This document shows positions 13,232 through 56,477 of a stretch of 64,000 bases of DNA, one piece after another. The DNA comes from Subtercola endophyticus. Lineage in GTDB: Bacteria; Actinomycetota; Actinomycetes; Actinomycetales; Microbacteriaceae. A model generated the notes under the pieces. It worked only from the letters and a program-made list of their open reading frames with translations, was not told where the DNA came from and searched no databases. The translations under genes and the position numbers were made by a program. The stretch covers positions 3,162,001 to 3,226,000 of the forward strand of contig NZ_CP087997.1 in NCBI RefSeq assembly GCF_021044565.1. The letters run 5' to 3'. Numbering within the stretch: the first letter of the stretch is position 1; every line of letters begins with the position of its first letter.

Positions 13232-13273
13232 TGCCGGAACCGCTGGCGCTGCTGTCGTCGCGGCAGAAGTCGC

Positions 13274-13314
13274 GGTCATGTCATCTGTCATCGCTGTCAT
13301 GGCTGTCATCGCTG
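13274..13314. repeat. Short imperfect TGTCATCGC repeats
   Basis: Intergenic run of four to five TGTCAT-containing units of about 6-9 bp between the hydantoinase stop and the GTG start of the cyclodeaminase. It leaves little obvious Shine-Dalgarno sequence upstream of the latter. No regulator site recognised. Confidence 0.7.
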
Positions 13315-13330
13315 AGCTGCTGAGCCTCCG

Positions 13331-14584
13331 GTGCTGTTACTGAGCGCGAGCGACGTCGCCGAGCTTCTCACCCTCGACGCCGTCTTCGAGGCGACGCGTG
13401 AAGCAGCGATCGCGCACAGCGAGTTTCGCACGCAGCGAATCGCCCGAACCGCGCTTCAGCTGCTGGCGCGCGGTCGCTCTGAGAACGCGGCGCGGCCCGC
13501 GACACCGGATGCCCGGGGCGAACTGCTGGTCATGCCCGAGGTCGTCGATCAGAGCGTGTTCGCGGTGAAGACCTGGCATTCGTTCGAGCATTCGTTCGAG
13601 CATTCGGTCGCGGGTTCGGGCGTACGTTCGGGCGTACGTTCTGGCGCGGGTTCTGGCGCGGGTTCTGCATCGCGGCTCGCGCAGACGGGTTCGCTCATCT
13701 ACCTGATCGACGGCGAGTCAGGCGAGCAGGCGATTCTCGACGGCTCGCAGATCACCGACTGGCGAACGGGAGCGTTGTCTGGTCTCGCGGCGACACTTTA
13801 CGCGCCCGAGAATTCACGCCGGCTCGCCGTCATCGGCACGGGTCGCCAGGCACGCAGCCAGGCGCTCGCACTGGTGCACGCCGTGCCGACGCTCGAATGG
13901 GTAAGTGTGTGGTCACGGTCACCCAGGCGACGAGAAGACTTCGCGGCGCGGCTGACCCGCGACCTCGCCGAGATGTCGGCCGCGGGGTCTCGCCCGGTCG
14001 CAGTGACGGTCACGGCAGCCAATTCGGCGCCCAAAGCTGTCATCGGGGCTGACATCGTGGTCGCCGCTACCACCTCCACCCGGCCTGTCGTCATCGACGC
14101 CTGGCTCGCGGGCCCGGTTCTCGTCTGCGGCGTGGGCAGCCACTCGATCACCGCGGCCGAGATCGACCCGCGCGCAGTCGCCCGAGCCGACACGGTGGTG
14201 GTGGACACCATCGCGGGTGCCGTCGATACCTCGGGCGACATCTCGCTCGCCATCGCGCGGCATGGACTCGACCGGGCGCGGGTGGTGGAGCTCGGGGCAG
14301 TGCTGGGTGCGGTCGGCGGCGTTGAGGCCGGCGGCGGCGAAGGCGTCGGCGGCCGGGGCGTCGGCGGTGAGAGCAGCGACGTTGGTGTCGGTGTCGGTGC
14401 CAGTTCCGGTGTCGGTGCCGACGGCGAATCTGCGGCAACTCGCGCTGGCCACGCCCGGCGCGACGGAATGACCGTCTTCAAGAGCGTCGGCTTCGCGGCG
14501 GCCGACGTGGCTGTCGCTGCCGCGGTGACTCGCCTCGCCGTCGCTCGCGGCGCGGGAACGCGAATCGAGTTGTCGGCACAGTAA
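13331..14584 (+). CDS. Ornithine cyclodeaminase/mu-crystallin family protein with repetitive inserts
   Basis: Protein of 417 aa, against about 310-340 aa usual for the family. The Rossmann motif is AVIGTGRQARSQ, and the fold continues through GADIVVAATTS. The extra length is low complexity: a repeat block around residues 80-112 (EHSFEHSV, GVRSGVRS, GAGSGAGS) and a Gly/Val-rich block around 320-365. Family members reduce ketimines, deaminate ornithine or dehydrogenate N-alkylamino acids. In this cluster it could process the imine made by the HcnC-like oxidase. The repeats are in frame, and the rest of the protein looks intact. Confidence 0.82.
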   Translation: MLLLSASDVAELLTLDAVFEATREAAIAHSEFRTQRIARTALQLLARGRSENAARPATPDARGELLVMPEVVDQSVFAVKTWHSFEHSFEHSVAGSGVRSGVRSGAGSGAGSASRLAQTGSLIYLIDGESGEQAILDGSQITDWRTGALSGLAATLYAPENSRRLAVIGTGRQARSQALALVHAVPTLEWVSVWSRSPRRREDFAARLTRDLAEMSAAGSRPVAVTVTAANSAPKAVIGADIVVAATTSTRPVVIDAWLAGPVLVCGVGSHSITAAEIDPRAVARADTVVVDTIAGAVDTSGDISLAIARHGLDRARVVELGAVLGAVGGVEAGGGEGVGGRGVGGESSDVGVGVGASSGVGADGESAATRAGHARRDGMTVFKSVGFAAADVAVAAAVTRLAVARGAGTRIELSAQ

Positions 14585-42851: not shown

Positions 42852-44111
42852 TCAGACGACCGGAGAAACGTACGAGGCGAGAACGCGCTTGCCGGCGATC
42901 AGCAGAGCGGCGTCGTCTTGCGGGGGGTGCACCCGCGAGCACAACACGTCGCGCAGGTGGCGCTCGAGCGGATTGTTGCGGGTGAGGCCCGGGTTGCCCA
43001 GGGCGCCGACCGCGGTCTGCACGGCAGTAATAGAGGAGCGGGTGATGATGAGCTTCGCGAGCAGCGAGCGCTGCAGGGCATCCTGATCGCCTTGGTCGAT
43101 GCGCGATGCGAGGCCGTAGAGCACTTCTTCGGCCTGCACCAGCTGCGCCTCGATCTCGCCGGCGATCGACTGGATGCGCTCAGTCGTGGCGATCGGCCGC
43201 CCGAGCGAGCTCGGAACCCGCTCGTTGGTGAAGGTCGTGAAGAACTTCTGCGCGGCGCGGGCGACGCCGAGGTAGAGAGCGCTGATCGAGAGGCCGATGC
43301 CGCCGGATCCGCCCTTCTCGTTCGGCGCCTTCGACAGGGGCACACCACGGAAGTTCTCGAACGGAACCTCGACGTTCGTGTAGATGATGTCGTGCGTGCT
43401 CGTGGCGCGGAGGCCCAGGTGATCCCAGGTCTTCACGATCTCGATTCCCGGCGTGCCCGCGGGAACGATGACGTGGCCGATCAGCGGGTCTTCGTCATCG
43501 GTGGCGGCCCAGACCGCGTGATAGACGAGCCCCTCAGAGCCGGTGCCGAAGCCCTTGTGACCGTTGAGCAGCCAGCCGGTGTCGGTGCGCTCGACGCGTG
43601 TGGCGGGCAGGCCGCCGCGGGCCGGAGCGCCCAATTCGGGTTCGGCGCGGATGGCGTTGACCAGCGACGGGCGCTCGAGCGATTCGGCGACGAGCCGCTC
43701 ATAGACGCCGGCGGGCCAGAGTCCGCGGTCGGCTTCGACGCCGCCGGTCGCCGCGGTCGACTGCGCCTGAAAGACGTGCTGAAAGACCGTCATCGCCGTC
43801 AGCAGGGCGACCGACGGGTCACCCTCGCCGAGCGCCTGAAAAACGCGGGCGAACTCGCTGCTCGACACGTTGCGGCCGCCGTAGACCTCGCCGATGCCGA
43901 GTCGTAGCAGCCCGGCATCGTGCACGACCTGGATTCCCGCCCAGGGAAAATCGCCGGTGCGGTCGTATTCGGCAGCGGTCTCGGCGAGTTTCGCGGTCAC
44001 CGCGGCGAGGGCTGCGGGGCTGGTGTCGACGGGCGGCAAGAGTGTTTCTGCGCCGGTGCTCTGCTGGGCATCCGCCCGGCCGTCACCCGGCCGCGATTCG
44101 AGCAGGGTCAT
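42852..44111 (-). CDS. Acyl-CoA dehydrogenase-fold flavoprotein, DszC/SfnB-like
   Basis: 419 aa with acyl-CoA dehydrogenase N-, middle and C-terminal domains (GDFPWAGIQVVHDAGLLRLGI, LNGHKGFGTGSEGL, and the AVGALGNPG helix). SfnB and DszC are members of this fold that act with FMNH2 and oxygen on sulfones or thiophenes. Its start overlaps the LLM monooxygenase stop (ATGA), so the two are co-translated. A plain acyl-CoA dehydrogenase role is unlikely given these partners. Confidence 0.82.
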   Translation of the reverse strand: MTLLESRPGDGRADAQQSTGAETLLPPVDTSPAALAAVTAKLAETAAEYDRTGDFPWAGIQVVHDAGLLRLGIGEVYGGRNVSSSEFARVFQALGEGDPSVALLTAMTVFQHVFQAQSTAATGGVEADRGLWPAGVYERLVAESLERPSLVNAIRAEPELGAPARGGLPATRVERTDTGWLLNGHKGFGTGSEGLVYHAVWAATDDEDPLIGHVIVPAGTPGIEIVKTWDHLGLRATSTHDIIYTNVEVPFENFRGVPLSKAPNEKGGSGGIGLSISALYLGVARAAQKFFTTFTNERVPSSLGRPIATTERIQSIAGEIEAQLVQAEEVLYGLASRIDQGDQDALQRSLLAKLIITRSSITAVQTAVGALGNPGLTRNNPLERHLRDVLCSRVHPPQDDAALLIAGKRVLASYVSPVV

Positions 44112-45292
44112 GACCGAACGCTCGCTTCTGCCAGCGCAACGCTGCCTTCGGCGAGACCGCCGAGGTGCTCGGCCTGCAGCGAGCCCTTCTGGCCCGTGCG
44201 TTCGCGGTGCGCGAGCTCTTCGCGCACCAGGGGGATGACGTAGCGGCCATAGTCGACCGCGTCGTTGAGGTTGTCGTAGCCGCGGATCGAGATGAGGTCG
44301 GCGCCGAGGTCGACGTAGTCGAGAATCGCCGCGGCCACCGTCTCGGGTGTGCCGACGAGAGCGGTCGAGGCGCCCTGAGCTCCCGTGGCCGTCGCGGTCG
44401 GAGTCCAGAGAGCGCGGTCGTGCAGGTCTCCGCCGGCCGCGATGTTCAGCAGGCGCTGCGAGCCGACGTTGGCCGGCGCGTTGCCCGTGGGCACCTGGCG
44501 CCAGAGCGAACCCTTACTGGTTCCGCCTGTGGCCCGCTCCTGCAGAATCGAGAGCGTGTTGTGCGCCTTCTCCCAGGCGAGCTCCTCGGTCGGCGCGATG
44601 ATCGGACGGAACGTCACCCAGGTGCGCGGCGTATCGGTACGACCGGCGAGACGGGACTGCTCCGCGACGCGGTCGATCTGCTCCTGCGTCTCTTTCAGTG
44701 GCTCGCCCCAGAGCCCGAAGATGTCGCCGAGCGCTCCTCCGACCCGGTAGGCGTCAGCGGATGATCCGCCCACCGAGATCGGAATCGTACCGTTCACCGG
44801 CCGGACCACCGACACGAAATCCTCGAACGAGTAATACGTGCCCTTGTGGTCGAAGCGCTCGGTGTTGTTCCACACCTTGCGGAGAATCTGGATGTACTCC
44901 TCCTGCCGCGCGTACCGCTCGGTCTTGTTCAGGCGGTCACCCTCCCGCGCCTGCTCCGCGTCACTGCCGCCTGCGATGAAGTGCACCACGGCCCGGCCGT
45001 TGCTCAGCTGATCGAGCGTCGCCAACGCCTTCGCGGCCACCGTCGGGTAGATCGTGTTCGGGCGCAGAGCGATGATCGGCTTGATGCGCTCGGTGTACTG
45101 CGTGACCGCCGCGGCGATGGTGAACGGGTCGTGGCCCGGCGAACCGTAGGGCACCAGCGTGTAATCGAAGCCGCCGTCTTCGAGAATGCGCGAGTAACGC
45201 TTCAGGTAGACGGGGTCGAGCCGAAAGTCATTGACGCCATTGATCTCGTTGGCGGCGTTGACGTTGATGGCGCTGATGAATTCGACAGACAT
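44108..45292 (-). CDS. LLM-class FMNH2-dependent monooxygenase, SsuD-like
   Basis: 394 aa, luciferase-like fold: N-terminal FISAINVNA, DYTLVPYGSPGHDPFTIAA, and the conserved VHFIAGGSDAEQAREGD segment found in SsuD/SfnG-type alkanesulfonate and sulfone monooxygenases. Releases sulfite from organosulfonates using reduced flavin. First gene of the importer operon; 128 nt separate it from a Cys-rich leader ORF. No flavin reductase gene is in the operon. Confidence 0.87.
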   Translation of the reverse strand: MSVEFISAINVNAANEINGVNDFRLDPVYLKRYSRILEDGGFDYTLVPYGSPGHDPFTIAAAVTQYTERIKPIIALRPNTIYPTVAAKALATLDQLSNGRAVVHFIAGGSDAEQAREGDRLNKTERYARQEEYIQILRKVWNNTERFDHKGTYYSFEDFVSVVRPVNGTIPISVGGSSADAYRVGGALGDIFGLWGEPLKETQEQIDRVAEQSRLAGRTDTPRTWVTFRPIIAPTEELAWEKAHNTLSILQERATGGTSKGSLWRQVPTGNAPANVGSQRLLNIAAGGDLHDRALWTPTATATGAQGASTALVGTPETVAAAILDYVDLGADLISIRGYDNLNDAVDYGRYVIPLVREELAHRERTGQKGSLQAEHLGGLAEGSVALAEASVRS

Positions 45293-45534: not shown

Positions 45535-45862
45535 AACCCCAAAACTACTTCGCAGTCCCAAAGGGCGTCCAACTGTATTACCTAATGTGAATCGATCAGC
45601 CCCAGCGATGGTTCGCCGCCGCCGTCTCTCCATCGATCGTGCACTTGATCTTCCTCGCGCAGACGCTTATTCTCTTTCGGGGGGCAAAAACAACAAATAG
45701 TCGCTTTTGCCATGATTGGTTTCGGGGCTCTGTTAATGGCGTTAATGGCGCACGTTCGCTCTCTTGTCGTGACCGCACTGACGGATCTCACTGTCAGCAT
45801 GGAAACAGCGTCACGAGGAAGAGTCCAAGCAACCACACCTCGATCACTTGGGATCTCGGGCA
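45535..45862. other. Gene-free stretch before the accessory patch
   Basis: 328 bp with lower GC than its surroundings and no ORF with a convincing protein pattern on either strand. It must contain the promoter for the leader ORF/sulfur operon (minus) and perhaps one for the 45863 gene (plus). Confidence 0.5.
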
Positions 45863-46234
45863 ATGAGCATAGGTGCTGAATCTCCCGAGCTTGTTGGCAT
45901 TGACCTCGAAGACAGCTCTGTACTGAACGTCGAGTCGTTCCCATCGAATGTATGGATCTCGTTCGACTTCGTGCTCACCGAGGAACATCCAAGTTACGCG
46001 CCGCCCGACACTGATTCCCAGTTCTGCTTTAGACGAGGCAGAATTGTGTTCCACGGCGTTACGCATTGCGATTGGTCGCGTCAGGGAGAGTTAGTACCAG
46101 CACGAGACGCCAACAATGAAATCGACTACGGCCATCTCGATGAGTTTTCAAATCAAGGTAAGCGGTACTCGGTTTCGGGCGAGTTCGGTGCAATGAAAAT
46201 CGACGCTGATCGCTTTGAGGTCGAGCTTGAGTGA
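45863..46234 (+). CDS. Hypothetical protein, immunity-like
   Basis: 123 aa from ATG 45863 (a TTG 15 nt earlier is less likely). Acidic, beta-rich pattern without membrane helices: SNVWISFDFVLTEEHP, RGRIVFHGVTHCDWSRQ, and a C-terminal ADRFEVELE. The size, acidity and position in a row of unrelated small genes of lower GC resemble orphan immunity genes, but no named family is recognised. Confidence 0.55.
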   Translation: MSIGAESPELVGIDLEDSSVLNVESFPSNVWISFDFVLTEEHPSYAPPDTDSQFCFRRGRIVFHGVTHCDWSRQGELVPARDANNEIDYGHLDEFSNQGKRYSVSGEFGAMKIDADRFEVELE

Positions 46235-46457
46235 TTTAGCGACTGATTCTGATAGGTCGAGTAAACCGTCTACGGTCTTCTGCCGCTTCTATGCGCGATT
46301 AGTTCAGCTGCCCGCGATACTCCGTCCGACGAAGCCCAAGAAATGGGTCTGATGGACAGAATTCTGTTCAGTTCGATACGGGCGGGACCAGGGTTATCTT
46401 CAACGAAGACAACCCTTGGCGTAGTGCCGCATACTACCCCGGTAAATGAGGTGCGCA

Positions 46458-46868
46458 ATGGGTGACAACACGCTCGACAACGTCATGGTGAGCCTTTCCG
46501 ATACGCGCGAGATCAGGTTATCGAAGCTCTTAAGTGCGTGGAGTCAGCATGTCGAGCGATTGCGAAATGAAGTCATGACAAGTAATTCGGATTCCTCTTG
46601 GACCCCGCACGACCTTGTTGCTGCGCTGATTTTACGAGATCGAGTCTCTGATGCGCTCAACGAATTTCCCCTTCTTTCTGACGCCGCCAACGCAGCCGGA
46701 CTAACTGCGGCTGATCGGGTCTTCAAGGCGATCACGATTGAAGATCCCGATGAACTGGTGGTCAGCTTCGCTTCGAAACAACGTCCTGCTCAGTGGTGGT
46801 GGAGCCGCTTGCCAAAGAGCGGTTCGATAAGGGACGATCTCGTGGCATTCGGCAGGAATTTTACGTAG
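46458..46868 (+). CDS. Hypothetical protein
   Basis: 136 aa from ATG 46458, preceded by GAGGTG at 7 nt. Mostly helical and soluble (REIRLSKLLSAWSQHVERLRNEV), with a C-terminal QWWWSRLPKSGS patch. Family not recognised. GC lower than the flanking metabolic genes. Followed after 62 bp by the left end of the IS256-family element. Confidence 0.6.
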   Translation: MGDNTLDNVMVSLSDTREIRLSKLLSAWSQHVERLRNEVMTSNSDSSWTPHDLVAALILRDRVSDALNEFPLLSDAANAAGLTAADRVFKAITIEDPDELVVSFASKQRPAQWWWSRLPKSGSIRDDLVAFGRNFT

Positions 46869-46930: not shown

Positions 46931-48348
46931 GGTCACGTCCCGTTGTGTGGTGGAGTTTCTCGACACCGTGCGGGGATCAATTCATTGATTATGCGGCAGC
47001 GAGTTCTGGGATAACAACCACCTCCTCGACCTCGTTGAGTGTGGTGTCGAGTTCCTTCATTGAGGCTTCGGAAAAGTAGCGTCGCTCGCCGGCTTCCCAT
47101 TCGTCGTGCTGCTCGACGAGGACAGATCCGGCGAGGCGGAGCATCGCTGCTGGGTTCGGGAACACGCCGACGACGTCGGTGCGGCGTTTGATTTCTTTGT
47201 TCACCCGTTCCAGCGGGTTCGTGGACCAGATCTGACGCCAATGCTTCGGCGGGAAGCTCGCGAACGCGAGCAGGTCCGGGCGGGCGTCGTTCAGCATCGT
47301 CGCGACTTTCGGGTGGGAGCGTTCCAGCATTTTCGTGACCTCGTCGAACTGGCCGTTCACGTGCTCTTTGTCGGGTTGGGCGAAGATCGTGCGAATGATC
47401 GAGCCAACCATCTCCTGCGATCCTTTCGGGATCACCGCGAGCACGTTGCGCATGAAATGCACCCGGCACCGCTGCCACGACGCACCCTGCACCGTCACGG
47501 TGATCGCCTTGATCAGGCCGGCGTGCGCGTCGGAGATCACGAGCCTCACGCCGTTCAGGCCGCGGGCTTTCAGGCCGCGGAGGAACTCGGTCCAGAATGC
47601 CTCGTTTTCGCTGTCACCGACGTCGAAACCGAGGACTTCACGGTGCCCGTCAGCGGCGACACCGACCGCGACAACGATCGCCTGTGACACGACCCGATGA
47701 TTCACGCGTGCTTTGCAATAGGTTGCGTCGAGGAACACGTACGGGTACGCCTGCCCGGCAAGGTCGCGGTCCCGGAACGCAGCGACCTCGGCATCGAGGT
47801 CAGCGCAGATGCGTGACACCTCCGATTTCGATATCCCGGTGTCGGCGCCGAGCGCTTTGACGAGATCGTCGACCTTTCGGGTCGAGACGCCGTGCAGGTA
47901 CGCCTCCATCACGACTGCGAACAGTGCCTGATCAACCCGTCGGCGGCGTTCCAGCAGCGACGGGAAGAACGTGCCCGCCCGCAGCTTTGGGATCTTCAGC
48001 TGCAGATCCCCAGCCGTTGTGCTCAGCAGGCGTTGCCGGACCCCGTTTCGTTGCGTGACCCGATCGGTACTGCGTTCGTAGGGTCCGGCGCCGATGAACG
48101 CGGCAGCTTCCGCGTCGATCAGCTCTTGGTACAGCGTTTCGGTCGCGACCCTGACCCGGTCGCTGACATCAGTGAGTTTCAGTTGGCCAAGCAGCTCGAG
48201 CAAGGCAGAATTATCCAGAGCCATCGTGCGTGAGTCCATTCCATGAGTAGCTTTAGTCGGTGCTCATCGACCATCGCACGATGGCTCACCACGTCGACAA
48301 CACGACGCTCAGCTAGCCAAAAATTCCACCACCCACGGGGACGCAACC
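46931..48348. mobile_element. IS256-family insertion sequence, complete
   Basis: Bounded by imperfect 30-bp inverted repeats, 46931-46960 and 48319-48348 (23 of 30 positions match). Flanked by a perfect 8-bp direct repeat TGAGATCA at 46923-46930 and 48349-48356, the target duplication. One transposase gene fills it. Element length 1418 bp, normal for the family. It interrupts intergenic DNA between two small hypothetical genes and broke no recognisable ORF. Confidence 0.92.
46989..48239 (-). CDS. IS256-family transposase
   Basis: 416 aa, full length. DDE-type residues are visible: Asp in VFLDATYCKARV, Asp in LVISDAHAGL, Glu in WSTNPLERVNKEIKRR; between them the family block CRVHFMRNVLAVIPK. 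N-terminal region (ALLELLGQLKLTD) binds the inverted repeats. No frameshift or truncation, so the element may still be mobile. Confidence 0.96.
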   Translation of the reverse strand: MDSRTMALDNSALLELLGQLKLTDVSDRVRVATETLYQELIDAEAAAFIGAGPYERSTDRVTQRNGVRQRLLSTTAGDLQLKIPKLRAGTFFPSLLERRRRVDQALFAVVMEAYLHGVSTRKVDDLVKALGADTGISKSEVSRICADLDAEVAAFRDRDLAGQAYPYVFLDATYCKARVNHRVVSQAIVVAVGVAADGHREVLGFDVGDSENEAFWTEFLRGLKARGLNGVRLVISDAHAGLIKAITVTVQGASWQRCRVHFMRNVLAVIPKGSQEMVGSIIRTIFAQPDKEHVNGQFDEVTKMLERSHPKVATMLNDARPDLLAFASFPPKHWRQIWSTNPLERVNKEIKRRTDVVGVFPNPAAMLRLAGSVLVEQHDEWEAGERRYFSEASMKELDTTLNEVEEVVVIPELAAA

Positions 48349-48405
48349 TGAGATCACCAACGCTGGACAGAATTCATCACCCTTCCTCAAGTGAAAGGTG
48401 AACAT

Positions 48406-48864
48406 ATGGACATGGGATTTTCGGCACTCGAGATTCGAGATGGTTCGCTGCTCTTTCTTGAAAAGTTCGAGACCACCGCTGGCGACGACCTGACCACTTT
48501 GATCGGTGACACCGATCGAAGTGTCTGGGCGGACGGAGGAACTACTGACCCCGCGGCTTGGTTCAACTGGATCAGATGCCTGTGGCTGATGAAGGGGATA
48601 TCCAGCGTGTGGAAGGGCGGTCAGAAGGTAGAAGTGCAAACCGATACCGGAGATCTGGCCGTCTTAGAGTGGCTGCCGTGTAGGAATACCGACTGGCCGC
48701 CGGGATACGATGCGGTGGCTGTAGGGCGTCCGTTTACAGAGCTATCGGGATTTGAAATGTTTGTTTCCGCTTTGCGAGAATTTGACTCACGCGGAACCGC
48801 CGGAGGGATTAAGCAATTCCGGTCAAACCTTTCCGATTCGGGGTGGCCCTCGGTCCACTTGTAG
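48406..48864 (+). CDS. Hypothetical protein, immunity-like
   Basis: 152 aa from ATG 48406 with AAGGTG 5 nt upstream; a GTG at 48391 is less likely. Soluble, acidic, Trp-rich (WFNWIRCLWLMKGISSVWKGG), no signal. No family recognised. Lies just right of the IS element. Small size, low GC and lack of relatives nearby fit an orphan immunity or contact-system gene, without proof. Confidence 0.55.
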   Translation: MDMGFSALEIRDGSLLFLEKFETTAGDDLTTLIGDTDRSVWADGGTTDPAAWFNWIRCLWLMKGISSVWKGGQKVEVQTDTGDLAVLEWLPCRNTDWPPGYDAVAVGRPFTELSGFEMFVSALREFDSRGTAGGIKQFRSNLSDSGWPSVHL

Positions 48865-48929
48865 ATCGGGTTTGCGAAGGGAAGCGTAGCTCGCCCAGAA
48901 CAGTGAGCGCGCCGGGGACAACCCGTTAG

Positions 48930-48995
48930 ATGCGCAAACTTTTCACGGTTTACCACGCCTATTTCTACGAAACTGATGGTTGGGATACCAGGTAA
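48930..48995 (+). pseudogene. N-terminal remnant, DUF7336-like
   Basis: 21 codons, MRKLFTVYHAYFYETDGWD and two more, stopping at TAA directly before the next ATG. The opening resembles the short conserved start of DUF7336-type proteins, which normally continue with an IGVYSS motif that is absent here. Too short for certainty. Confidence 0.35.
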
Positions 48996-49298
48996 ATGAC
49001 GGGCTCAAAGATAGCGATAGAGCAATGGTCTTCGGTAGAGGATCGCCCCTATGAGAACCTCTTGCCTATAGTTTCTGCGCTTGTGGGGAAGGGCAATGAG
49101 GTCATTGGGCAAGATTTCGTTCTGAACAAAAGTGGCTGGATCTGTCAGCTCAAGCGTGAAGTAGACACCGAATTCGTAAGAAGAACGTTTGCCCTTCCAC
49201 CAAACATCGAGGTCGGGCCATACGACGCAATCTTGGATCGATTTTCATGGTCAGTGATTCAAGGTCCGAGGGCACTTGAACTCATGCGAATACGATGA
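48996..49298 (+). CDS. Hypothetical protein
   Basis: 100 aa from ATG 48996, immediately after the stop of the 21-codon remnant. Soluble, contains QDFVLNKSGWICQLKRE and a C-terminal PRALELMRIR. No Shine-Dalgarno of its own, so translation probably depends on the upstream ORF. Family not recognised. Confidence 0.5.
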   Translation: MTGSKIAIEQWSSVEDRPYENLLPIVSALVGKGNEVIGQDFVLNKSGWICQLKREVDTEFVRRTFALPPNIEVGPYDAILDRFSWSVIQGPRALELMRIR

Positions 49299-49551
49299 CC
49301 ACCGATTTTCGGGATGCTTCAGGCAACGCCCGGGATCACCGAATGTTGAATCGGAATCTAAACCACCCACATTGAGCCGGCGTCTTCGACCGCAGCGGAA
49401 CGCATCCGTTCCTAAGACCCACGAAGGCGACGCTTTCGTATCCTTTGAGATATCTCGGGGCGGCTCCCTGGCAGCGAACACCTGGGGTGGCTACAAAGTA
49501 GATATCGACATCCAAACTGGAGAGGTTAGGGGCTCCACGTTTGTCAAGTAG
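49276..49551 (+). pseudogene. Possible fragment with a conserved-looking C-terminus
   Basis: 91-codon frame overlapping the previous gene end. The first half is Arg/Pro/Ser-rich and not protein-like. The second half (DAFVSFEISRGGSL, then GYKVDIDIQTGEVRGSTFVK) looks like the end of a real beta-rich protein. Probably the 3' part of a decayed gene. Confidence 0.35.
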
Positions 49552-49791
49552 CCAGCAATGCTCGACGGCCCAAGAAGGCCAATAAGGTGGAAAGAGGGGC
49601 TCTGGCCCGTCATGGGTCGAAATGTTACGGGCCACGACTTGTGAACTGGCCTCGCAGACGGTTACTGTCGGGGGGATCGCAGCACGACGCGAAGCCTTGC
49701 GCCCGGGTGAAGAACACCGGGCACGCGCTGCGGCTCCCTGAACAACAATTCAGCGGGCCGCTTTGGCTCGCCCGAACAGAATCGGTCTGTC
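49552..49791. other. Gene-free, structured leader region of mesX
   Basis: 240 bp with no credible ORF. It holds a 7-bp perfect stem GGCCCGT/ACGGGCC and a second GC-rich hairpin (CCCGGGTGAAGAACACCGGG). The mesX GTG has no clear Shine-Dalgarno. A regulatory RNA is possible, but no known riboswitch consensus could be matched by eye. Confidence 0.35.
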
Positions 49792-50790
49792 GTGCATCTA
49801 GCATTCTCACTTGAGAGCACTCGTTTCGACGAGAACTATCGCCCCCGCAGCGATACGCGCATTACGACGAACTTCGCCAACCTCGCCCGGGGCGAGAATC
49901 GTGAACAGAACCTGCGCAGCGCGCTGACGATGATCGACAACCGGATGAACGATCTCGCCTCGTCGGAGAACGAAAGCGGCGATCGATACTCGCTCGAACT
50001 CGACATTATCTCTGTGAGCGTCGAATTCGATGGCAGTCTCGACGCGCTGCCGCTGATCGAGGTACTGCAGACGACGATCGTGGACCACCGATCCGGCGAA
50101 CGTGTGCCGGGCATCGTGGGCAACAATTTCTCGTCGTACGTGCGGGACTACGACTTCAGCGTTTTGCTCCCCGAGTACACGAGTCAATTCGGGCCCGGCC
50201 TCCCCGACGACTTCGGAGACCTGCACGGAAACCTGTTCAAGAGCTTCGTGCGCTCCGACTGCTACGCGCAGCATTTCGCCAAGCCGCCCGTCATCTGCCT
50301 GAGTGTCTCCACCAGCAAGACATACCACCGCACCGAGAACCAGCACCCGATTCTGGGCGTCGAGTATCGGCAGAGCGAGTACTCCCAGACAGACGCGTAC
50401 TTTGCGAAGATGGGATTGCAGGTGCGCTTCTTCATGCCGCCGAACAGCGTGGCGCCTTTGGCGTTCTACCACCTCGGCGATCTGCTCGGCGACTACACCG
50501 ACCTCGAGCTGGCCTCCACGATCAGCACGATGGAGACATTTCAGAAGATCTACAGGCCAGAGATTTACAACGCGAACTCCGCGGCAGGGGAGTCGTATCG
50601 GCCGAGCCTTCACAATCCGGATTTTTCGGCGATGCCGATCGACTACGACCGGGAAGAGCGCAGCCGACTGGGGCTCGAGCAGGGCAGGTTCGCCGACGAG
50701 CACTTCATCACGCCGCACAAGGCAGCCCTCGAACAATGGTCGACTGACTTCGCGCTGCATTATCTCGATCTGCAAGGAGAACGGCTGTGA
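49792..50790 (+). CDS. mesX: MesX, DUF1852 partner of the MesD methionine synthase
   Basis: 332 aa from GTG 49792. The sequence follows the DUF1852 pattern from the start: FSLESTRFDENYRP, TRITTNFANLARGENR, and later LPEYTSQFGPGLPD. MesX is reported to be required, with oxygen, for methionine formation by MesD; its chemistry is not established. Its stop overlaps the mesD start (GTGA), so equal synthesis is expected. Start choice fits the usual short N-terminus of the family, though the ribosome-binding site is poor. Confidence 0.88.
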   Translation: MHLAFSLESTRFDENYRPRSDTRITTNFANLARGENREQNLRSALTMIDNRMNDLASSENESGDRYSLELDIISVSVEFDGSLDALPLIEVLQTTIVDHRSGERVPGIVGNNFSSYVRDYDFSVLLPEYTSQFGPGLPDDFGDLHGNLFKSFVRSDCYAQHFAKPPVICLSVSTSKTYHRTENQHPILGVEYRQSEYSQTDAYFAKMGLQVRFFMPPNSVAPLAFYHLGDLLGDYTDLELASTISTMETFQKIYRPEIYNANSAAGESYRPSLHNPDFSAMPIDYDREERSRLGLEQGRFADEHFITPHKAALEQWSTDFALHYLDLQGERL

Positions 50791-51815
50791 ACAAGCTTCT
50801 TCCCACCTCAACGGCCGGCAGCCTGCCCAAGCCCTCGTGGCTCGCGCAGCCCGAGACTCTCTGGTCACCCTGGGAGCTGCACGATGAGCAGTTGGCCGAG
50901 GGCAAGAAGGATGCCCTGCGGCTCTCTTTGGCAGACCAGCGCGAGGCCGGCATCGACATTGTGAGCGACGGCGAACAGACCCGCCAGCACTTCGTCACCA
51001 CCTTCATCGAGCACCTCGGCGGAGTGGATTTCGAGAGACGTGAGACGGTCAGAATCCGCAATCGTTATGACGCCTCCGTGCCGACGGTGGTCGGCGCTGT
51101 GACCCGCGAGCGGCCGGTCTTCGTCGACGATGCTCGGTTTCTTCGCGAGCACACCGACCAGCCCATCAAGTGGGCCCTCCCCGGTCCGATGACCATGATC
51201 GACACCCTCTACGACGCTCATTACCGCAGTCGCGAGAAGCTGGCCTGGGAATTCGCCGCCATCCTCAATGAGGAGGCCAAAGAGTTGCAGGCCGCTGGCG
51301 TCGACATCATCCAGTTCGACGAGCCCTCCTTCAATGTCTTCTTCGACGAAGTGAACGACTGGGGCGTCGCCACTCTGGAGAGGGCCATCGAAGGGCTCAC
51401 CTGCGAGACAGCCGTGCACGTCTGCTACGGCTATGGCATCAAGGCGAATACGGATTGGAAGCAGACTCTGGGCCAAGAGTGGCGTCAATACGAAAAGATC
51501 TTCCCCAAGATTCAGGCGTCGGGTATCGACATCGTCTCGCTCGAGTGCCAGCACTCGCACGTGCCGATGGACCTCATCGAGCTCATCCGGGGCAAGAAGG
51601 TGATGGTCGGGGCTATCGACGTGGCGACCACCACCATCGAGACGCCCGAAGAGGTGGCCGATACTCTGCGTGAGTCACTTCAGTTCGTCGACGCCGACAA
51701 GCTCTACCCCTCCACCAATTGCGGAATGGCACCCCTGCCCCGGGGCGTCGCGCGAGCCAAGCTCACGGCGCTCGGAGCAGGGGCAGAGATCGTTCGAAAC
51801 GAGCTCTCCGCTTAG
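50787..51815 (+). CDS. mesD: MesD, core-type B12- and folate-independent methionine synthase
   Basis: 342 aa, the size of a single MetE catalytic barrel rather than the 750-aa MetE. Zinc ligands can be placed by comparison with MetE: His211 and Cys213 in HVCYGYG, Glu253 in SLECQHSH, Cys312 in STNCGMAPLPR. IQFDEPSF near 175-182 is the family acid motif. It methylates homocysteine from a donor other than folate. MesD proteins depend on MesX, encoded directly upstream. It meets the convergent sulfurtransferase gene with a 4-nt overlap. Confidence 0.9.
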   Translation: MNKLLPTSTAGSLPKPSWLAQPETLWSPWELHDEQLAEGKKDALRLSLADQREAGIDIVSDGEQTRQHFVTTFIEHLGGVDFERRETVRIRNRYDASVPTVVGAVTRERPVFVDDARFLREHTDQPIKWALPGPMTMIDTLYDAHYRSREKLAWEFAAILNEEAKELQAAGVDIIQFDEPSFNVFFDEVNDWGVATLERAIEGLTCETAVHVCYGYGIKANTDWKQTLGQEWRQYEKIFPKIQASGIDIVSLECQHSHVPMDLIELIRGKKVMVGAIDVATTTIETPEEVADTLRESLQFVDADKLYPSTNCGMAPLPRGVARAKLTALGAGAEIVRNELSA

Positions 51816-52642
51816 GCGCCGGTGGCGACGGGTCGGTCTGGGGTGTTCGACCAGGCCGACCACGAGCCGGGGAACAGGGCGGGCTTGAAGCCCGCGAGAG
51901 TCAGAGCCACCGCGTCGGCCGCTGCCGTGACACCCGAGCCGCAGTAGACGCCCACCGGGGCATCCGGTCGCACGCCCGCCGCCACGAACTGCGCACGCAG
52001 CTCGTCGGCCGGTAAGAAGTGCCCGTTCGCGTCGACATTCGCGGTCGCCGGCGCATTGAAAGCCCCGGGAATGTGGCCGGCCCGCGGGTCGATCGGCTCG
52101 ACGTCGCCGCGGAATCGCTCCGGGGCGCGGGCGTCGAGCAGCACGCCCACCTCGGGGAAGGCCGCGGCCTCGTCGATGGTGAGCGTCGGCAGCGAGCCGT
52201 ACTCGAGTGTCACGTTTCCGGGCGTGACGTTCGACTCGCCCGACTCGAGCTCGTAGCCCGCGCCGGTCCAGGCGCGCAGCGAGCCGTCGAGCAGCTTCAC
52301 ATCGGCGATGCCGGCGTTGGTCAGCAGCCACCAAGCCCGGGCTGACGAGAGGTTCTTGAGGTCGTCGTAGACCACGACCGTGTCGCCGTCGTTGATGCCC
52401 CAGCTGCGGGCGGCAGCCTGCAGGTCGGCGATCTCGGGCACCGGATGCCGGCCCTCGGCCGGTTCGCCGTGCCGGGCGAGCTCGGTGTCGAGATCGACAT
52501 ATACCGCTGTGGGAATGTGCCCTTCGAGGTAGAGCGGATGCCCGGCGGGGCCGCCAAGGCGCCAGCGAACGTCGAGCACCCGAACGGGTGCGCCCGAGTC
52601 GATCAGCGACTTCAGTTCTTCGGCGGTGGTGAGAATCGACAT
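51812..52642 (-). CDS. sseA: 3-mercaptopyruvate/thiosulfate sulfurtransferase
   Basis: 276 aa with two rhodanese domains. The active-site loop CGSGVT in VYCGSGVTA is the mercaptopyruvate-sulfurtransferase form, with the second-domain motif LLDARAPERFRG. Transfers sulfane sulfur to thiols or cyanide in the cytoplasm. Lies 53 nt downstream of the LysR gene on the same strand, so likely co-transcribed with it and the monooxygenase. Confidence 0.92.
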   Translation of the reverse strand: MSILTTAEELKSLIDSGAPVRVLDVRWRLGGPAGHPLYLEGHIPTAVYVDLDTELARHGEPAEGRHPVPEIADLQAAARSWGINDGDTVVVYDDLKNLSSARAWWLLTNAGIADVKLLDGSLRAWTGAGYELESGESNVTPGNVTLEYGSLPTLTIDEAAAFPEVGVLLDARAPERFRGDVEPIDPRAGHIPGAFNAPATANVDANGHFLPADELRAQFVAAGVRPDAPVGVYCGSGVTAAADAVALTLAGFKPALFPGSWSAWSNTPDRPVATGA

Positions 52643-52695
52643 GGTGCTCCTTCTATACAGGTTCGATGGGAGAGGGGTAGACAGCGAACGGGTGA

Positions 52696-53601
52696 TCAGA
52701 ACGACGACGGATGAATAGAGACCAGGGGCGGCGGCGCCACCGTGTGCGTGGCGAAGAACTCTTCGAGGGCCACCAGCGCCACCTGCTCGATCTCCACGTC
52801 GAGCCCGCGCCGCGTTGCGAGCCGCAGCGTCATCATCCCCAGCGACGGCAGGTCACGCCGAACGATGAGCCCGTCAGGTGGATGCCCGGCGTTCGGCATC
52901 GCGGCAACGCCGAGCCCCGCACGGGCCGCCGCGATGACGCCCTCCAGACTCGTCGACTCGGCGACCACGGTAACGGTGCGCCCGTGTGCCGTCAGCACCT
53001 CGAGCGCGCGCTGGCGCATTCCGCAGGGCGCGACGTAGGCGACGAGTGGCCACTCGTCGGAATCGGTCGGCGGCGACCATCCGGGGGCCGAGTACCAGTC
53101 GAGCGGCAGAGTGCCCACCGGGCTGCCGGGAGCATCGGGAGACAGGCCGAGCACGATCGCCAGGTCGATGGCGCCGCGAGCCACCGCGTCTTCCATCTGC
53201 GTCGAGCGATCGATCAGAAACTGCACCTTTCTGTCGGGAAAGGCGTCGCGCATCGTCTCGAGCAGCTGCGGCAGAATCTGGTCTGCGGCCGTCTCGGTCG
53301 AACCGATCACGATGGTGCGCTCGTGCGACACATCGAGACTGAGCAACGCATCGTCGTGCACGGTGAGAATCCGCCGGGCCTGCACCAGCAGCCGATCGCC
53401 CGCGGCGGTGAATGCCGCCTGACGCCCGGCCTTCTCAACGAGAGTCTGGCCGAGCTTGCGCTCGAGCAGCCGCACATGCTGGCTCACCGTGGGCTGGCTG
53501 AGGTGCAGCGCCGAGGCCGCGCGGCCGAATCCGCCGCAATCCGCGATCGCGACGAAGGTGCGCAGCTGCACGATGTCGAGGCTGTCGGCCACTAGACGCA
53601 C
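52696..53601 (-). CDS. LysR-family transcriptional regulator
   Basis: 301 aa. N-terminal winged HTH (LRTFVAIADCGGFGRAASALHLSQPTVSQHVR) and an effector domain of PBP type 2. Encoded between a sulfur-type monooxygenase (3 nt upstream) and a sulfurtransferase, and close to metY. By position it should control sulfur assimilation, analogous to CysB/CbL-type LysR regulators, but orthology cannot be claimed. Confidence 0.93.
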   Translation of the reverse strand: MRLVADSLDIVQLRTFVAIADCGGFGRAASALHLSQPTVSQHVRLLERKLGQTLVEKAGRQAAFTAAGDRLLVQARRILTVHDDALLSLDVSHERTIVIGSTETAADQILPQLLETMRDAFPDRKVQFLIDRSTQMEDAVARGAIDLAIVLGLSPDAPGSPVGTLPLDWYSAPGWSPPTDSDEWPLVAYVAPCGMRQRALEVLTAHGRTVTVVAESTSLEGVIAAARAGLGVAAMPNAGHPPDGLIVRRDLPSLGMMTLRLATRRGLDVEIEQVALVALEEFFATHTVAPPPLVSIHPSSF

Positions 53602-53604
53602 ATC

Positions 53605-54930
53605 CTAGAAGTCCTGAAGATTGGCGCGCAGGCCGCCACCGCCGAAGGAGTCACGCAGGATGCCACGGCCTCGCAGTTCGGGAACGACCTCGTCGAGCAT
53701 CCGGTGCAGGGTGACGGGGTGCAAGTCGCCGTTGATGATGAAGCCGTCGTTGTCGGCGGTCTCGCCGAGCCCCTCCACGAAGTCGGCGAACTGGGCGGCG
53801 GTGCCGACGAAGCCCGAGCCGTCGGAGAGCCTGCCTTTTCGGGCCTTGCGAGTGGCGATCTGCCGCAGCGTGTCGTTCTCGAGATCGCCGCCGCGACCCA
53901 CCAGGTTGTTGATGGTGCCCTGCGACACGTGCGGGGCGAAGACGCCCGGGCCGAGGGGGCGGTCGAGGTCGAGCACCGTCAGGTCGGTCTCGAGATCGCT
54001 CGACTGCGCCGCCAGCACGCTGACGAGCACCTCGTCAGACGGATGCTCGGACTCGAGCACCAGCCGGTCGACTTCTGCGTCGCTGTCGACGATCTCCGGC
54101 TTGATCACGAACAGAATCTTGATGTCTGACGGTCGCCGACCGTGCGCCACCGCCGAGTCGTGGATCTTCTGGCGATAGGCCCGCACGCTCTCGGTGTCGA
54201 GCGACGCGAGCGCCAGTTGCACATCGCTCTGGTGTCCGGCGAACGCCAGCCCGCGGCCCGATCCGCCGGGCGAGACCACCACCGGGTCGCCGACACCCTC
54301 GTCGAAGGGCAGCGCGTTGAGCGGGCCGTCCAGGGTGAAGTACTCGCCCTCGTGGTGAAAGGCGTCGAGCTTCGAGGCGTCGGCGAACTGGCCGGTGGCC
54401 TGGTCGCCGAGGTAGGCGCCCTCGCCCCAGCTGTGCCAGAGCCGGCGGATGACGCTCAACCACTCTTCGGCACGATCGTACGCCGCGTCGTGGCCGAGCT
54501 CGTCGAGGCCGAAGTGTCGTGCGCTCTTCACATCGGTGACGACGTTGACGCCGAAGCGGTTCGAGCTCAGGTGCGCAAGCGTGGCGAACTGCCGCGCTGC
54601 GACGTACGGCGGGTAGGCGCCGGCGTTCACGGTCGGTGCGACACCGAGGTGGGATGTCGCGGCGAACAGGTAGGGCGCGAGCAGCAACGGGTCGTGCTTG
54701 GGGCCGCCATAGGCCGAGTTGACGCGCAGATTCAGCGTTTCGGGCGAGCCGAGCGAAAGCGCGTCTTCGATGATGAGCAGATCGAACCCCGCCTGCTCGA
54801 GCTCACGCGCGGACTGCTGGTAGATGTCGGGGCGCTGCCAGGCGTAGTTCCAGCGGTAGTCGGCGCGCCCCCACGCTTGTGGTCCGAAGCCACGACCGAA
54901 GAACCAGCCGAAGTGTTGCAGGTGTGCCAT
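53605..54930 (-). CDS. LLM flavin-dependent monooxygenase, NtaA/SnaA/DszA type
   Basis: Start at ATG 54930, giving 441 aa opening MAHLQHFGWFFGRGFGPQ as in this family. Characteristic blocks: IIEDALSLGSP, LRVNSAYGGPKHDP, and RFGVNVVTDVKSARHFG. These enzymes use externally supplied FMNH2 to cleave C-S or C-N bonds (dibenzothiophene sulfone, nitrilotriacetate). Neighbours point to sulfur release. Divergent from metY across 125 bp. Confidence 0.88.
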   Translation of the reverse strand: MAHLQHFGWFFGRGFGPQAWGRADYRWNYAWQRPDIYQQSARELEQAGFDLLIIEDALSLGSPETLNLRVNSAYGGPKHDPLLLAPYLFAATSHLGVAPTVNAGAYPPYVAARQFATLAHLSSNRFGVNVVTDVKSARHFGLDELGHDAAYDRAEEWLSVIRRLWHSWGEGAYLGDQATGQFADASKLDAFHHEGEYFTLDGPLNALPFDEGVGDPVVVSPGGSGRGLAFAGHQSDVQLALASLDTESVRAYRQKIHDSAVAHGRRPSDIKILFVIKPEIVDSDAEVDRLVLESEHPSDEVLVSVLAAQSSDLETDLTVLDLDRPLGPGVFAPHVSQGTINNLVGRGGDLENDTLRQIATRKARKGRLSDGSGFVGTAAQFADFVEGLGETADNDGFIINGDLHPVTLHRMLDEVVPELRGRGILRDSFGGGGLRANLQDF

Positions 54931-54969
54931 GCATCTCAGTCTGTTCGACTCTGGGCTGCACTCGCGCCA

Positions 54970-55020
54970 ATGTTTCGTTGTGTGAATTCGCGACTGGGTG
55001 TTGCGGCCATACCCCCGTAG
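54970..55020 (+). CDS. Possible leader peptide before metY
   Basis: 16-aa ORF MFRCVNSRLGVAAIPP, with stop 35 nt before the metY ATG on the same strand. It has the look of the short Arg/Val-rich leader peptides annotated ahead of actinobacterial sulfur genes, but has only one Cys. Could be chance. Confidence 0.35.
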   Translation: MFRCVNSRLGVAAIPP

Positions 55021-55055
55021 CGTTGCCCAATCGAGAAAGAGCACGGAAACGAACA

Positions 55056-56477
55056 ATGACCACCACCCAGCAGGCCTACGGCGAAGACAATTTCGGGTTC
55101 AGCACCGAGCAGGTGCACGCCGGCGAGATCACCGGCGGCGACTTCGGAGCACGAATCACCCCGATCTACCTGACGGCCGGGTTCGTTTTCGACTCCTTCG
55201 ACCACGCCCAGCAGCGCTTCGCGGGCGAAGACGGCGGACTGGTCTACACGCGCTACGCCAACCCGACGAATCAGGCCGTCGAGGCCAAGCTGACCGCGCT
55301 CGAACACGGAGTGGATTCGCTGCTCGTGGCCAGCGGACAGGCAGCGATCACCGTCGCCCTGCTCGGCATACTGAAGTCGGGTGACCACTTTCTCTCGACC
55401 CCGAGCCTCTACGAGGGCTCGAAAACGCTCTTTCGCGAGAACTTCGAGCGCTTCGGCATCGAGGTCGAGTTCGTCACCGACCCACACGACCTCGACGAGT
55501 GGAAGCGCCGCGTGCGCCCCAACACCCGCGCCATCTACGGCGAGACCATTCCGAACCCGAAAAACGACCTGATCGACATCGACCTCGTTGCCGGCTTCGC
55601 ACGCGAACAGGGCCTGCCGTTCGTCATCGACAGCACGGCGTCGACGCCCTACCTCATCAGGCCCATCGAGCACGGCGCGAACATCGTCGTGCACTCGGCG
55701 AGCAAGTTCTTGAGCGGCCACGGCGCCTCGCTCGCGGGCGTCGTTGTCGACGGCGGAAACTTCGATTGGGCACGCTACCCCGAGAAGTTCCCGCAGTTCT
55801 CCACGCCGACAGACGGCGAGGGCAGCCCGACGCTGGTCGAGCGCTTCGGCGCCAAGGCCTACCTCGAGTACACCCGCAGCATCATCGCCGGCCGCCTCGG
55901 CCCCACACTCTCGCCGCTGAACGCCTTTCTGCTGCAGCAGGGGCTCGAGACCCTCTCGCTGCGGGTCGAACGGCACTGCCGCAACTCCCTCGCCGTCGCG
56001 ACCTGGCTCGAGCAGCAGCCCGAGGTGCTCTCGGTCGACTACCCGGGACTAGCGTCGAATCCCTCGCACGCCATCGCGGTGAAACACTATCCTCGCGGCA
56101 CCGGCTCGGTGTTCGGGTTCACGCTGCGCGGCGGTCTCGACGACGCTCGCACGGTCATCGACGCGGTCGAGTTGTTCAGCCGCATGTCGCACATGGGCGA
56201 CGTTCGATCGCTCATTCTGCACCCCGGCACGACCTCCCACGCTCACCTCAGCGAGACGCAAAGACTCGAGCTGGGCATCCACCCCGGCCTCGTGCGCCTC
56301 TCGATCGGGCTCGAAGACGAAGCCGACCTCATCGACGACCTCGAGCGCGCCTTCGCCGCCCTTCGGCGCACGGATGCTCTGCTCGAGCGCGCGCAGTCCG
56401 TCCTCCCGACGCCCTCCGCCGCCGCCCCCGTGCGCACTCCCGTGGCTCCAGCTCCCACCCCGCAAAGCGCGTTCTGA
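55056..56477 (+). CDS. metY: O-acetylhomoserine sulfhydrylase (PLP-dependent)
   Basis: Start at ATG 55056 (473 aa), opening TTQQAYGEDNFGFSTEQVHAG as in MetY proteins. Cys/Met-metabolism PLP family: YTRYANPTNQAVEAKL, the PLP-binding Lys in VVHSASKFLSGHG, and MSHMGDVRSLILHPGTTSH near the C-terminus. Forms homocysteine from O-acetylhomoserine and sulfide, feeding MesD. The last about 30 residues are Ala/Pro/Thr-rich. Together with the monooxygenases it links organosulfur breakdown to methionine. Confidence 0.93.
   Translation: MTTTQQAYGEDNFGFSTEQVHAGEITGGDFGARITPIYLTAGFVFDSFDHAQQRFAGEDGGLVYTRYANPTNQAVEAKLTALEHGVDSLLVASGQAAITVALLGILKSGDHFLSTPSLYEGSKTLFRENFERFGIEVEFVTDPHDLDEWKRRVRPNTRAIYGETIPNPKNDLIDIDLVAGFAREQGLPFVIDSTASTPYLIRPIEHGANIVVHSASKFLSGHGASLAGVVVDGGNFDWARYPEKFPQFSTPTDGEGSPTLVERFGAKAYLEYTRSIIAGRLGPTLSPLNAFLLQQGLETLSLRVERHCRNSLAVATWLEQQPEVLSVDYPGLASNPSHAIAVKHYPRGTGSVFGFTLRGGLDDARTVIDAVELFSRMSHMGDVRSLILHPGTTSHAHLSETQRLELGIHPGLVRLSIGLEDEADLIDDLERAFAALRRTDALLERAQSVLPTPSAAAPVRTPVAPAPTPQSAF

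Follow-up and report, generated by a model that had tools for sequence, protein, structure and literature searches.

Identity and layout of the mesX–mesD pair

The window analysed here, a stretch of 64,000 nucleotides from the genome of Subtercola endophyticus (contig NZ_CP087997.1, positions 3,162,001 to 3,226,000), carries mesX and mesD, two adjoining genes whose products belong to a folate-independent methionine synthase system. mesX (49792–50790, forward strand, GTG start) encodes a protein of 332 residues that matches DUF1852 (PF08908; 540 bits, cut-off 25) and is 58–78% identical to aligned relatives; mesD (50787–51815, forward strand) encodes a core methionine synthase of 342 residues. 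By their open reading frame (ORF) coordinates in the window, the two genes overlap by four bases, GTGA, at 50787–50790. Of the NCBIfam models, the equivalog NF006589 fits MesD best (680 bits, cut-off 392; the runner-up scores 221 bits). The closest solved structure to MesD is 3RPD, from Shewanella sp. W3-18-1, at 632 bits over residues 3–341, with the next structure at 84 bits. On both measures the MesD subfamily is far ahead of other MetE fragments. The sole Pfam match of the protein is to the catalytic domain PF01717 (128 bits, cut-off 21, residues 5–328), and MesD consists of this domain alone, having neither the MetE N-terminal domain nor a folate domain. His211, Cys213, Glu253 and Cys312, the likely zinc ligands, are all present, and each pairs with an identical residue in 3RPD, in an alignment in which no notable difference was seen.

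An earlier note on this DNA had called the 332-residue protein DUF1852 and the MetE-core-sized protein of 342 residues MesD, and had proposed coupling of the genes through GTGA as well as the same four zinc ligands. All of this was borne out by the family scores, the overlap and the alignment. Its account of the family, in which MesX and oxygen are needed and the methyl donor is not known, also stands, whereas its link of the donor to the breakdown of methylated organosulfur compounds does not, as discussed below.

MesX–MesD was described as a folate-independent methionine synthase by Price, Deutschbauer and Arkin in 2021 (PMC7857596), where 3RPD is called MesD. According to that paper, MesD activity requires MesX and oxygen, and neither MetF nor B12, and the methyl donor is given as not known. 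It is the sole paper found in the open-licence literature that names MesD, MesX and methionine synthase together; PMC11003636 does no more than cite it. Judged by sequence, the window pair is a correctly recognised member of this known system and would provide a two-gene route without folate or vitamin B12. It shares with the published system both proteins, their adjacency, the zinc ligands and the absence of a folate domain, and lies likewise in a genome without another recognised synthase and without full-length MetF. It differs in that its mesX is preceded by a conserved leader, with no LysR gene upstream, and in that no flavin reductase was found beside it.

In a phylum-wide sample of 396 genomes, PF08908 turned up in three, each a member of the window's own family, the Microbacteriaceae; within this family, 51 of 299 genomes have it. 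mesD lies directly behind mesX, on the same strand, in all 50 same-family loci other than the window, and directly behind it in all 87 further mesX loci. These comprise 80 genome records, 5 plasmids and 2 viral contigs; the 80 records are the best-scoring of at least 595 confirmed, a non-random sample in which three repeat family genomes already counted, and this holds wherever the 87 loci are cited below.

Methionine synthases in the genome and across the family

The genome that contains the window (one contig, 4.32 Mb, 98% complete) has no match to PF02965 (MetH), PF08267 (the MetE N-terminal domain) or PF02574, and neither metE nor metH was thus found elsewhere in it. For MetF (PF02219), it has only a partial match below the cut-off (22.3 versus 24 bits). 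A MetX-type gene is present (414 bits, E 8e-124); its score lies below the model's 500-bit cut-off, as do those of all 80 family genomes examined and of all positive controls.

These 80 genomes comprise all 51 family members with MesX and 29 selected by hand from the 248 without it. Among the 51, MetE was found in two, MetH in two and either in three, and full-length MetF in the same three, leaving 48 without MetE, MetH and full-length MetF. Among the 29 that lack MesX, 21 have MetE, four of these also MetH, and the same 21 have full-length MetF (as two adjoining pieces in G420), which the other eight lack. A 19-bit MetE match in G426 falls inside its mesD and was left out of the tally. The split between MesX and MetE/MetH gives a Fisher p of 6e-10, a value not corrected for the kinship of the genomes. 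Full-length MetF is thus found in all 24 genomes with MetE or MetH and in 0 of the 48 with MesXD only, which makes ordinary 5-methyltetrahydrofolate (5-methyl-THF) unlikely as the methyl donor. Both states occur within the window's genus: mesX without MetE, MetH or full-length MetF in G000, G402, G545, G594 and G676, and MetE and MetF without mesX in G484 and G638. The data show displacement: in this family, MesXD mostly stands in for the usual synthases. This agrees with the tendency toward MetF loss reported in PMC7857596, where MetF seems to be missing from 69% of the 85 proteomes in which MesD is the sole synthase. While the MesX–MesD system itself was already published in 2021, the displacement pattern and the leader are useful additions, and the family offers a natural experiment on the methyl donor of MesX, with MetF following MetE/MetH and not the MesXD-only state.

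Neither MesX nor MetE, MetH or MetF was found in eight of the genomes (G396, G397, G401, G412, G416, G418, G438 and G503), in which a MetX-type gene was found; they are possible methionine auxotrophs or may use another synthase.

From what is seen directly, namely the identity, coupling and zinc ligands of the pair, the MetX-type and MetY genes, the absence of matches to MetE and MetH and the sub-cut-off MetF, we infer that MesX–MesD acts as a folate-independent synthase and, very probably, as the main or sole methionine synthase of its own genome, a reading to which we assign a probability of roughly 0.8. The methyl source and the chemistry of MesX can likewise be proposed. MetX and MetY would make homocysteine, and MesD, as a zinc enzyme, would bind its thiolate and methylate it; MesX, with oxygen and probably reduced flavin, would make or carry a methyl group derived from some compound of central metabolism. 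The sulfur genes around the pair would form a local cluster, with the recurring link to metY reflecting homocysteine supply.

Several observations weigh against this assignment. The genome encodes a second PF01717-only protein (L002, 392 residues, at 3075940–3076947), which matches NF005085 with 544 bits against a cut-off of 313 and has HVC, LEYD and QCGF motifs that could be the same zinc ligands. L002 may be another synthase and is the main caveat to mesXD as the sole one. The MetF negatives rest on PF02219, the flavin-independent MetF type of mycobacteria not having been searched for, and partial PF02219 matches of 20–46 bits occur in 20 of the 48 MesXD-only genomes, 17 of them exceeding Pfam's cut-off. 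Furthermore, just 3 of the 50 family loci have a flavin reductase homologue close to mesX, and none was found at 39–62 kb of the window (two query proteins, E 1e-8).

If L002, as an NF005085-type protein, were the real methionine synthase, mesXD would be conditional. We consider this improbable: the score above the cut-off and the possible zinc motifs favour it, but no full-length MetF was found to feed the enzyme. Distinctly improbable, too, is that a diverged MetF supplies 5-methyl-THF, which MesD would use after all. The partial PF02219 matches speak for it, as does a 389-residue protein of the same genome (L034 1063–2229, at about 2.134 Mb) with a CPKKMQFGPCGG N-terminus (DUF5981), which scores 22 bits with PF02219 and 26 bits with DUF5981 (cut-off 23, exceeded), and reaches 58 bits with NF006396 (cut-off 453, not reached). 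A different methylenetetrahydrofolate reductase (MTHFR)-like gene also lies near mesX in 4 of the 87 further loci. On the other hand, PF02219 has no match at E 1e-3 in 28 of the 48 MesXD-only genomes, mesXD rescues an Escherichia coli metF mutant (PMC7857596), MesD has no folate domain and its genome no PF08267 match; PMC7857596, moreover, treats such a protein of A. baylyi and deems another function likely. The loci with MTHFR-like genes include L117 and L142, and two of the four genes, in Janthinobacterium, lie within 3 kb of mesX.

MesX and the source of the methyl group

The predicted structure of MesX, based on 53 sequences, is confident, with a mean predicted local distance difference test score of 83.6 and a predicted template modelling score of 0.86. 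Foldseek found no match to the model at E 1e-3 in the PDB (best 0.05) or in BFVD, and none better than E 0.02, so that no fold was assigned by analogy with a known oxygenase or flavoprotein. By sequence, no relatives were found in the PDB at E 1, and a profile-search match to 2grk (E 0.27) was taken as chance. Pfam labels the family 'putative oxygenase', and His145, His185 and Cys169 are invariant among the aligned relatives.

A flavin reductase gene lies behind mesD in 36 of the 87 further loci, the best 80 of at least 595 genome records included, and a flavin mononucleotide (FMN)-reductase gene before mesX in 7 of them. According to PMC7857596, a flavin reductase is 'often' nearby and is not a required feature, and flavin-linked oxidation was suggested for MesX; our counts agree in part with this suggestion. 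In Acinetobacter baumannii, B12 lowers both the flavin reductase ABUW_3196 and the DUF1852 gene ABUW_3198 (PMC12892962).

The genes around the pair gave a tempting lead on the donor. Downstream, a rhodanese (51812–52642) is followed by a LysR gene (52696–53601), by a luciferase-like monooxygenase (LLM) of the NtaA/DmoA type (53605–54930, reverse strand; TIGR03860 266 bits, below the cut-off of 279.7) and, divergent from it, by metY, for an O-acetylhomoserine sulfhydrylase (54879–56477, forward strand; PF01053 392 bits; TIGR01326 495.1 bits against a printed cut-off of 495.1), the true start of which is probably downstream of the ORF start. Upstream lie an acyl-CoA-dehydrogenase-like flavoprotein (42852–44111) and an SsuD-like LLM (44108–45292). 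The earlier note had thus rightly placed flavin monooxygenases on both sides of the pair, together with a sulfurtransferase and metY (42852–45292 and 51812–56477). With an ATP-binding cassette (ABC) transporter, the left-hand genes form a cluster at about 34–45 kb that looks, from its gene content, like one for organosulfur uptake, the two oxygenase-like proteins in it scoring under every specific NCBIfam cut-off. A point absent from the earlier note is that mesX is parted from this cluster by an IS256-type transposase (46989–48239) and by low-GC DNA (GC 0.549 at 48300–49790 versus 0.663 for the whole window). Around the transposase, partly in the low-GC DNA, are four small ORFs without a Pfam match (45848–46234, 46446–46868, 48391–48864 and 48996–49298), which look like orphan island genes.

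We compared these neighbours with the ORFs of the mesX regions in the 50 relatives (BLAST E 1e-8, at least half of the query covered; regions of 10–20 kb, mostly about 10 kb per side, a few of them truncated by contig ends). Homologues near mesX were found in 0 of the 50 for the SsuD-like LLM, the acyl-CoA-dehydrogenase-like protein, the solute-binding protein and the rhodanese, and likewise for the LysR gene at 52696–53601 and the IS256 transposase. Each of the two permeases, the NtaA/DmoA-type LLM and the ORF at 34305 had a homologue in one of the 50, the ABC ATPase in three and a major facilitator superfamily (MFS) gene in eight. metY-like genes occur in four, one of them close (57% identity, L076) and three about 32% identical. 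The association of the window's sulfur neighbours with mesX is accordingly seen in 0–3 of 50 related loci, or in four for metY-like genes, which weakens the lead.

metY and one NtaA/DmoA-type LLM alone recur near mesX. In L076 (genome G513; 8809–13672), metY, the LLM, mesX and mesD follow one another on one strand, metY and the LLM overlapping by four bases, in an apparent operon. At E 1e-80 the LLM is found in 99 of the 299 family genomes, in 71 of them with at least 60% identity, and 30 of these 71 also hold mesX. The distance between the two is at most 15 kb in three of the 30 (G000, G513 and, at about 12 kb, G502), more than expected from a uniform-placement model (p about 0.002). Ten further LLM loci were fetched. 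In every one the LLM adjoins metY, and mesX is missing from all of the stretches, though five of the genomes (G402, G545, G594, G502 and G525) have it elsewhere. In each of the five congeners that have the LLM, the metY–LLM pair is present and mesX is absent from the 20 kb fetched. In one of these, the mesX-less G638, metF and metE are on the metY side of the LLM, at distances of 3.5 and 4.5 kb. We read this as a methionine synthase of either kind being placed occasionally near a homocysteine-making gene, with no special support for a methylated sulfur donor; the recurrence of metY and this one LLM fits homocysteine supply. The NtaA/DmoA-type LLM is a neighbour of mesXD, and its membership in the system is not shown.

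The earlier note had proposed that the methyl group derives from methylated organosulfur compounds broken down by the neighbouring flavin monooxygenases. The neighbourhood itself, with its monooxygenases, rhodanese and metY, the arrangement in G513 and the linkage in 3 of 30 genomes all favour such a donor. The window's neighbours, however, are not conserved near mesX in the 50 relatives, the metY–LLM pair of the five congeners has no mesX nearby, the LLM keeps company with metF and metE in G638, and both LLMs score under every specific family cut-off. Two published results point the same way. E. coli can use mesXD in M9 medium with glucose (PMC7857596), a result that speaks for a methyl donor arising in central metabolism; and B12 has opposite effects in A. 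baumannii AB5075, where the DUF1852 gene drops (log2 −8.3) and sfnG, sfnB, msuE and ssuD rise (PMC12892962). Given the neighbour comparison and this opposite regulation, we consider the proposal unsupported and highly improbable, and nothing firmly ties the methyl source to the adjoining sulfur genes. In Phaeobacter, a core-MetE-like protein that was not shown to be MesD is dispensable for dimethylsulfoniopropionate-dependent lag shortening (PMC12366255).

A conserved leader in place of a LysR gene

Upstream of mesX lies a conserved leader element (49674–49735, forward strand, 57 bases before the mesX start), a candidate cis-regulatory RNA or DNA operator. A LysR gene immediately precedes mesX in 35 of the 50 relatives, on the opposite strand in 30 and on the same strand in five, the LysR call having been confirmed in Pfam for one representative. 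The window and 15 relatives have no LysR gene there, and 14 of these 16, the window included, hold the leader block, which is conserved over 54 positions and reads CGARGCCTYGCGYCC ... GGRCACGC(G)CTGCGRC, apart from one departure in L075. In a tree of concatenated MesX and MesD (62 tips), the 14 leader loci, out of 51 mesX loci, form one clade with support 1.0, the window's clade. A second clade (0.996) holds the 35 LysR-type loci and also the two loci with neither feature. The exchange of leader and LysR gene is therefore one evolutionary difference and not many. On this pattern, mesX expression in the leader clade is probably controlled through the leader instead of a LysR gene, and the leader may control the mesX–mesD pair as a whole. 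Two loci stand out in the tree. The congener G676 (L042) has a LysR-type mesXD, its MesX 63% identical, while the window and three other congeners are of the leader type, which suggests a separate acquisition. L075 has a leader of the window's subtype, yet its MesX–MesD groups with the other subtype.

We built a covariance model from 16 leaders, namely these 14 and those of Herbiconiux daphne and Agreia sp. VKM Ac-1783. The window leader scores 56.1 bits (E 6e-12; model R1) within a range of 51–79 bits for the 16 members, a match by construction because the window copy is among them; across 76 sources (1.45 Mb), nothing else scores above 17 bits. In the 87 further mesX loci, the best 80 of at least 595 genome records included, the model gave five matches, all in Agreia or Herbiconiux, which are two training members and three training genomes again. 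The best beyond these, a weak match of 23.5 bits (E 0.003), comes from Pandoraea capi (L169 4523–4570), where it lies roughly 3.4 kb upstream of mesX. The loci scanned thus yielded no independent new copy, copies elsewhere in these genomes not having been searched for, and the best match among the fetched loci of metY, metX and metE/metF was 14 bits. In blastn searches of plasmids, the window leader had no match and the L053 leader six short, unrelated-looking ones.

Neither the window nor the loci of seven relatives matched an Rfam model at the gathering score, and a relaxed threshold gave chance-level matches alone in the window and L053; a B12 or S-adenosylmethionine riboswitch before mesX was rejected on these grounds. 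In the open-licence literature, no paper was found on a riboswitch and methionine synthase in Microbacteriaceae.

Thirteen of the 16 leaders contain a short ORF with Cys-Arg-stop at its end, the stop codon overlapping the mesX start as ATGA, and nine such ORFs, of 23 codons, are preceded by GAGGAG or GAAGAG. Beyond its end, the peptide is not conserved: variable sites number 15, 16 and 11 by codon position, and a leader peptide conserved in amino-acid sequence finds no support in these counts. Coupling may therefore matter more than sequence, as discussed for mycobacteria in PMC4633059. The actinobacterial cys leader peptides (PMC1262725, PMC4633059) resemble this arrangement in having a short ORF before a sulfur amino-acid gene and a Cys codon near the stop; the mesX leaders differ from them in usually having a single Cys codon, in ..CR-stop, in an otherwise unconserved peptide, and the window itself in having no short ORF. 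There, the counterpart of CGGTCTCCCGTGCAT, the stretch with the ORF start in L070, is CGGTCTGTCGTGCAT, which continues straight into mesX, its GTG being the mesX start.

These features invite the idea that the leader of the Agreia/Herbiconiux clade is a new class of cis-regulatory RNA, a riboswitch or a translational attenuator with an ATGA-coupled ORF, which replaced LysR and tunes MesXD to a methionine-cycle or cysteine signal, the window having lost the short ORF, whose start codon would now serve mesX. We advance it tentatively and as rather unlikely, an RNA role for the leader being weakly supported. The simpler alternative, to which we give somewhat less than an even chance, is that the leader is a conserved promoter or operator, or inherited similarity, without any RNA role. 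The folding is unexceptional (z-scores between −2.2 and +0.6 for the 13 leaders folded out of the 16, and −2.65 for a longer window stretch); covariation comprises one compensating pair in the named helix, which reflects a difference between two subgroups, and changes on both sides in 2 of the 12 pairs of the RNAalifold consensus; and the upstream peptide is not conserved. Against this simpler view, the block is kept where the flanking DNA differs between the subgroups, and the covariation exceeds that of all 500 shuffles and of the slid versions, a score that relatedness alone can yield. The leader also lies downstream of a TANNNT-like box, which was read by eye; scanning the window with a promoter consensus gave no hit. 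The leader would give a regulatory handle on MesXD, and its signal could hint at the factor that limits the pathway; Agreia and Herbiconiux would be hosts in which the donor question could be addressed.

Other occurrences of mesX

A mesX 68% identical to that of the window is found in a record titled Bacillus subtilis SK6B4 (L114), possibly by contamination. The gene is further present on two contigs filed as viral (L087 and L088) and in 209 plasmid records, the most of which, 71, are from Pantoea.

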